Both the position numbers and the translations under genes were made by a program. Below the pieces are notes generated by a model, which was given only the letters and a program-made list of their open reading frames with translations, searched no databases and was not told the DNA's origin. 64,000 bases of DNA from Syntrophomonas sp. (GTDB lineage Bacteria; Bacillota; Syntrophomonadia; Syntrophomonadales; Syntrophomonadaceae): positions 1 to 64,000 of the forward strand of contig JAENYG010000015.1 of the NCBI GenBank assembly GCA_016841875.1, read 5' to 3'. Shown here one piece after another: positions 54,223 through 55,003 of the stretch; position 1 is the stretch's first letter; each line of letters opens with the position of its first letter.

Positions 54223-54273
54223 TTGACAGAACAAGTGTTCGCAGTTAAAATATACATAACAGAACATGTGTTC
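54223..54273 (+). promoter_or_regulatory. Promoter overlapped by two LexA (SOS) boxes
   Basis: TTGACA (54223-54228) and a TAAAAT-like -10 at 54246 with a 17-base spacer. GAACAAGTGTTC (54229-54240) sits directly after the -35, and GAACATGTGTTC (54262-54273) lies near the start site. Both fit the Firmicute LexA consensus GAAC-N4-GTTC. Expected to be repressed by LexA and induced by DNA damage. Confidence 0.8.
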
Positions 54274-54302
54274 GCAAATAAAGTTAGAGGAAGGTGTAGA
54301 TA

Positions 54303-54410
54303 ATGTTCGAAGGAATAAGCAGAAAAGAATTTATAGAAGCAGCTGTAGGAGCGGTCTGCACGGTAGTCATGGGATATCTGCTATCGGTGGGTTTCCTGCT
54401 GGTTTTTTAA
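54303..54410 (+). CDS. SOS-controlled 35-residue membrane peptide
   Basis: 35 codons from ATG behind AGAGGAAGGTG. Amphipathic N-terminus MFEGISRKEFIEAAVGA, then one hydrophobic helix (VCTVVMGYLLSVGFLLVF). No family recognised. LexA-controlled single-helix peptides elsewhere act as division inhibitors (YneA, SidA) or depolarising toxins (TisB); this one could be either. The reading frame, ribosome site and promoter fit together, which supports it as a true gene. Confidence 0.7.
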   Translation: MFEGISRKEFIEAAVGAVCTVVMGYLLSVGFLLVF

Positions 54411-54619: not shown

Positions 54620-55003
54620 ATGAACCAGGAAGAGCAATTAGGCCGAAATTGGGCGATGGGATGCCATCTTTCAGCTCTAGCCTTATATCTAGGGATACCT
54701 TTTGGCAACATACTGGGGCCCATGATTATTTGGCTGTTGAAAAAAGATGAGTTTCCACTGGTAGATGAACAGGGCAAAGAGTCTTTGAATTTTCAAATTT
54801 CACTGCTGTTATATGGAGCAGCAGCAGTCATTTTGATGGTTATTTTCTCATTGACCATAATATTAATACCACTGGCGATAATACTGGGGATGCTGCTCCT
54901 GGTATACGGCTTGGTTAACCTGATTATTATCATAATTGCCGCCTTAAAGGTCAGCAATGGGGAGTCGTTCAGGTATCCACTGACCATGAGATTATTAAAA
55001 TAA
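54620..55003 (+). CDS. DUF4870 small membrane protein
   Basis: 127 residues. Three hydrophobic segments. WAMGCHLSALALYLGIPFGNILGPMIIWLLKK and DEQGKESLNFQIS (split here: HLSALALYLGIPFGNILGP; DEQGKESLNFQIS) are the DUF4870 hallmarks. Function unknown. ATG behind a G-run. Confidence 0.85.
   Translation: MNQEEQLGRNWAMGCHLSALALYLGIPFGNILGPMIIWLLKKDEFPLVDEQGKESLNFQISLLLYGAAAVILMVIFSLTIILIPLAIILGMLLLVYGLVNLIIIIIAALKVSNGESFRYPLTMRLLK

Follow-up and report, generated by a model that had tools for sequence, protein, structure and literature searches.

The 64,000-nucleotide stretch of Syntrophomonas sp. DNA analysed here (the window) carries a 35-codon gene whose product is, judged from its sequence and its promoter, very probably an SOS membrane peptide. 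The peptide is conserved in one family (Syntrophomonadaceae) and resembles no protein family described so far; two LexA sites almost certainly make its gene inducible by DNA damage. That it is an SOS division inhibitor working like SidA, SosA and YneA is on balance probable.

Promoter and paired operators

The features of the locus, all on the forward strand, are the following.

54223..54228, + strand: -35 hexamer TTGACA (TTGACA, TTTACA or TTGACG in nearly all homologs)
54229..54240, + strand: LexA-type box 1, GAACAAGTGTTC, within the -35/-10 spacer and kept in homologs
54246..54251, + strand: -10 hexamer TAAAAT, from promoter analysis
54262..54273, + strand: LexA-type box 2, GAACATGTGTTC, covering the expected transcription start and kept in homologs
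54289..54296, + strand: Shine-Dalgarno-like GAGGAAGG, from the sequence; homologs have a purine-rich Shine-Dalgarno (SD) sequence in the same place
54303..54410, + strand: peptide ORF, 35 residues, stop included; predicted single membrane helix, under purifying selection

The initial annotation had described two GAAC-N4-GTTC boxes over a good promoter and a ribosome site leading into the ORF, and this order and its coordinates were confirmed. The promoter, TTGACA-17-TAAAAT, agrees with the consensus at 11 of 12 positions (54223-54251); box 1 occupies the 17-nt spacer, box 2 begins 10 bp 3' of the -10 hexamer, and the ATG at 54303 opens a frame that ends at 54410 and yields MFEGISRKEFIEAAVGAVCTVVMGYLLSVGFLLVF. 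The window contains no exact GAAC-N4-GTTC match besides these two boxes (0.45 would be expected by chance), and a pair within 60 bp occurred in 0 of 300 first-order Markov windows. Within the 3.97-Mb host genome the peptide locus was the sole GAACN4GTTY pair at 13-22 bp spacing, and the reversed pattern, used as a control, gave 0 matches. GAACN4GTTC sites occurring singly are not unusual (39 in the host genome, versus 29 for the reversed control pattern), so that single-box matches prove little and the weight is carried by pairing and conservation.

One LexA was found in the host, its gene lying on contig C42 and the peptide on C2. The host lexA promoter box is CGAACATGTGTTTT, its core is the same as that of box 2 (GAACATGTGTT), and host-genome matches to GAACRNRYGTTY also precede addB, ruvC, recA and lexA. 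Across the family, a GAACN4GTTT box was present in the lexA promoters at 17 of 18 loci examined, mostly as CGAACN4GTTTT, and CGAACN4GTTTG was present at 16 of 18 recA loci examined; the lexA, recA and ruvC genes of C. difficile carry the same GAACN4GTTT form (PMC4234289). When 84,980 species genomes were scanned for this promoter with paired boxes, independently of the peptide, 64 loci were returned. Twenty-one of these lead to the peptide, all in Syntrophomonadaceae, and other loci precede recA, lexA, Y-family polymerases, YneA-size LysM proteins (in Alicyclobacillus, LysM proteins of ~100 aa and YneA type) and PC4 proteins.

Because the host lexA carries the same core and the paired promoter precedes SOS genes elsewhere, the peptide boxes are, on sequence grounds, LexA boxes, and LexA control is strongly supported. 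The flanks of the boxes (AGAAC...GTTC, versus CGAAC...GTTT at lexA and recA) could be taken to indicate a repressor other than LexA, an explanation that the same two observations make very improbable. As palindromes, the peptide boxes come closer to perfection than the lexA and recA boxes do, a hint that the peptide is repressed more tightly and induced later.

Several other occurrences of the boxes were recorded. In about a dozen species of Sporolactobacillus (L059, L080, L081 and others) the paired-box promoter stands before a PC4-domain protein of ~91 aa, and in Chloroflexi/Anaerolineae (L053, L065, L069, L098, L107) before a conserved Cys-rich protein starting LNLKPCPYR. On three rumen/viral contigs (L052:6124-6171, L093:7392-7439, L207:1539-1586) it is followed by no plausible ORF; a similar GC-rich sequence containing GCATACGCGA comes after the promoter and may encode a small RNA controlled in a LexA-like manner. 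Genome G025, which lacks the peptide, has four exact GAACN4GTTC sites in 104 bp (G025:C1:1510027-1510130; L130/L132) beside a phage-like-looking ORF of 423 aa, possibly a LexA-controlled prophage. In G000, a hydrophobic ORF of 22 codons, VNVYEVILYITVILFTLALIAK, has a good SD and, ~70 bp upstream, a LexA-like box, GAACAAATGTTT (G000:C32:2606-2617; L196); the ORF resembles short holin-like toxins and may encode another SOS membrane peptide of this genome.

Conservation of the peptide frame

A direct search with the peptide sequence found full-length relatives, and a search with a profile of 28 rows, in which matches were counted at E<=0.01, found relatives in 41 of 54 Syntrophomonadaceae genomes from ~19 genera, including Syntrophomonas zehnderi OL-4 (L051), S. 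palmitatica (L055) and Thermosyntropha lipolytica (L076). The profile did not find the peptide in 9 other genomes of the same class, and among 398 genomes across the phylum it gave, outside the family, just weak partial matches inside longer frames. The homologs range from 34 to 41 residues; Met1 and Tyr25 are invariant, Glu/Asp9 is present in 41/41, and Phe2 and Lys/Arg7 in 40/41 each. In all 17 close pairs examined pS exceeded pN, by a narrow margin where counts were small. Synonymous and replacement changes numbered 4 and 0 for G000/G002, 15.5 and 6.5 for G000/G004, and, with small counts, 3.8 and 6.2 for G053/G035 (pS 0.17, pN 0.08). Conservation and the excess of synonymous change strongly support a translated frame, and on this evidence the 35-codon ORF is a real gene rather than a chance one.

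The operators are conserved with the frame. When at most two core mismatches in all were allowed, two boxes 25-33 bp apart (30 bp in 21) were present in 38 of 41 homologs; the other three are G007, whose perfect pair is spaced by ~37 bp, G034, whose boxes are degenerate, and G009, which has none, and this brings paired operators to 39/41 (38 strict and one at wider spacing). In most homologs ~14-46 nt separate box 2 from the ATG. The close relative G003 (L219 / L101) has 244 nt between box 2 and the start, through either a leader insertion or an added regulatory leader.

Flanking genes change from genus to genus. In the genus of the window and one other, the peptide is accompanied by a divergent upstream gene of 425 aa, which by eye we take to be adenosylhomocysteinase-like, and by a DUF4870 gene; elsewhere other genes adjoin it. 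In the window the latter encodes a downstream membrane protein of 127 aa (54620-55003), and it is beside the peptide in only these two genera. Since the neighbours vary between genera, the conserved unit is taken to be the promoter plus the peptide. It is very unlikely that the frame is incidental and that the boxes control a small RNA or a longer transcript instead. The same-strand DUF4870 gene 200-320 bp downstream in the two genera and the homolog with the 244-nt leader would fit such a transcript, but length, start, SD and residues are kept in ~19 genera, synonymous changes exceed replacements per site, and the downstream genes change while the frame stays, so that this explanation is already contradicted. 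A frame lost while the boxes served a longer transcript was the case that the initial annotation had set against itself; when the comparison was run, frame and boxes proved to be conserved jointly and the downstream genes not, and the annotation was not refuted.

No copy was detectable in 13 of the 54 family genomes, including three of one genus (g22), one of which is a single contig. The missing copies are partly real and partly due to genome incompleteness, and a paired-box search in genomes without the peptide, including the three g22 genomes, found no replacement peptide. Because 13 of 54 genomes have no detectable copy, the function of the peptide would be dispensable or replaceable, a point against the division-inhibitor reading.

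Membrane helix and candidate functions

AlphaFold2 predicted one helix at residues 7-34 with a mean pLDDT of 91.5. The N-terminus is of the KKE type and the membrane stretch is uncharged; residues 13-34 contain no charge or His in 40/41 homologs. The predicted helix and this stretch strongly support the single-helix membrane peptide proposed at the outset. As the basic pair 7-8 precedes ~22 uncharged residues, the positive-inside rule points to an N-in, C-out topology with almost nothing outside. Small residues occupy positions 13, 16, 17, 24, 28 and 30 of the membrane stretch, which together with the fixed Tyr25 form the kind of pattern expected of a helix that packs on another. The statement that the sequence matches no known family was borne out: no credible match was found in Pfam, NCBIfam or PHROGs, tblastn against phage and plasmid records gave no match, and a PDB profile search gave one meaningless 13-residue match. 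When viral contigs were scanned for the paired-box promoter, two loci were found, neither with the peptide, and no description of the peptide was found in the literature on LexA with Syntrophomonas.

The proposed mechanism is that of a monocistronic SOS gene. In the absence of damage, LexA dimers on the two near-perfect operators, one in the spacer and one at the start site, would close the promoter tightly; upon damage, RecA filaments would provoke LexA self-cleavage, the promoter would open and the 35-residue peptide would be made. Its short basic N-terminus would stay cytoplasmic and residues ~12-35 would span the membrane once, and the helix with its small residues and Tyr25 could then pack onto a transmembrane helix in the machinery of septal wall synthesis (FtsW or partners), pausing division during DNA repair as do SidA and the membrane segment of YneA.

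An apparent vacancy in the host family also points to division. No LysM frame shorter than 286 codons, and no LysM protein of YneA size, was found in the host, and the lexA loci examined in the family have no LysM gene and no YneA-like divergent gene; in G064, a relative from the same phylum, a LysM gene of 107 aa lies divergent to lexA. Ten genomes were covered by the LysM search, and YneA-like proteins without a recognisable LysM would escape it. The checkpoint slot thus appears vacant in the family, and since it looks empty the peptide is the obvious candidate to fill it. SidA, of 29 aa, targets FtsW (PMC4211646); TM7 of FtsW is bound by the YneA membrane helix, and ChiZ, SosA and SidA have been modelled there too (PMC13396833). 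The YneA membrane helix alone localises without a division block (PMC13396833), and because it is insufficient and the peptide has no outside domain, SidA is the sole close functional precedent.

A TisB- or DinQ-type membrane toxin, by which SOS-induced depolarisation would bring damaged cells into dormancy, is the less probable of the two parallels drawn initially, and would look alike in sequence to a division inhibitor. The peptide matches this class in size, LexA control and single helix, its double-operator promoter would be tightly closed, and dinQ likewise has two LexA operators (PMC3567139). However, TisB requires charged or polar residues along its helix and C-terminal lysines (K12, Q19, K26/K29; PMC11449926), whereas the membrane stretch of the peptide is uncharged with no hydrophilic face, and at the window locus its hydrophobic moment is low (0.06-0.16) and it has no basic C-terminal tail. 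The mostly short leader likewise differs from the long inhibitory leader of type I toxins, and Rfam contained no known RNA family at the locus. Of the two parallels, by analogy, the one with division inhibitors (SidA, SosA, YneA) fits better and that with TisB worse. Antisense promoter-like matches at the locus were near chance level. A strict hairpin with T-run was conserved as a 3' terminator in just 4/41 homologs, and a terminator-like match over the last codons of the ORF was not accepted as real.

Small single-helix peptides often bind and tune larger membrane proteins. An SOS-induced modulator of a membrane system other than division (a protease, a transporter, or a respiratory or proton-pumping complex) is accordingly conceivable, although rather unlikely. 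The conserved small-residue/Tyr face would fit a specific helix partner and the peptide is confined to one family of energy-limited syntrophs; against this, no conserved neighbour names a partner and the Gram-positive SOS precedents are division inhibitors. Slightly more doubtful is the idea that the helix binds a target new among SOS peptides, for instance a membrane complex for proton or electron transfer in these energy-limited syntrophs, so that metabolism instead of septation would slow down after damage.

Unrelated tiny membrane proteins have given rise to SOS division inhibitors time and again, and the target that these share, FtsW, has only begun to be understood. The homologs amount to an alignment of ~40 natural variants of a minimal SOS membrane peptide that lacks any further domain. 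They show clear conserved positions (Phe2, Lys/Arg7, Glu/Asp9, Tyr25), come from a group in which a checkpoint protein was not found here, and offer a convenient way to ask if a helix on its own can act as a checkpoint. They also illustrate how operator and frame conservation can reveal a 35-codon gene that the searched family libraries lack.

Comparison with known SOS peptides

TisB and DinQ of Escherichia coli are, like the peptide, LexA-controlled membrane peptides, of 27-29 residues, and dinQ has two operators; both have antisense-RNA antitoxins, for which Rfam gave no match at the peptide locus, and TisB differs in needing for toxicity a charged amphipathic helix, which is not seen in the peptide. 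SosA of Staphylococcus aureus is also LexA-controlled, small and single-helix with no LysM, but it has 77 residues and an extracellular C-terminus and adjoins lexA, whereas the peptide has 35 aa with its helix predicted to run to residue 34. YneA of Bacillus subtilis likewise comes from a Firmicute SOS gene under LexA boxes and has one membrane helix, and the YneA-like genes of Alicyclobacillus share the paired-box promoter with the peptide; in contrast, YneA has an essential LysM domain and is usually divergent from lexA, and the peptide has neither, its 35-residue frame being without a Pfam match and so without a C-terminal LysM. SidA of Caulobacter crescentus is LexA-controlled like the peptide and, at 29 residues, is likewise an inner-membrane peptide made of a single helix without further domains. 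This likeness is one of architecture only: SidA is alphaproteobacterial and acts on FtsW, whereas the peptide belongs to one Firmicute family and stands behind a paired GAACN4GTTC operator.
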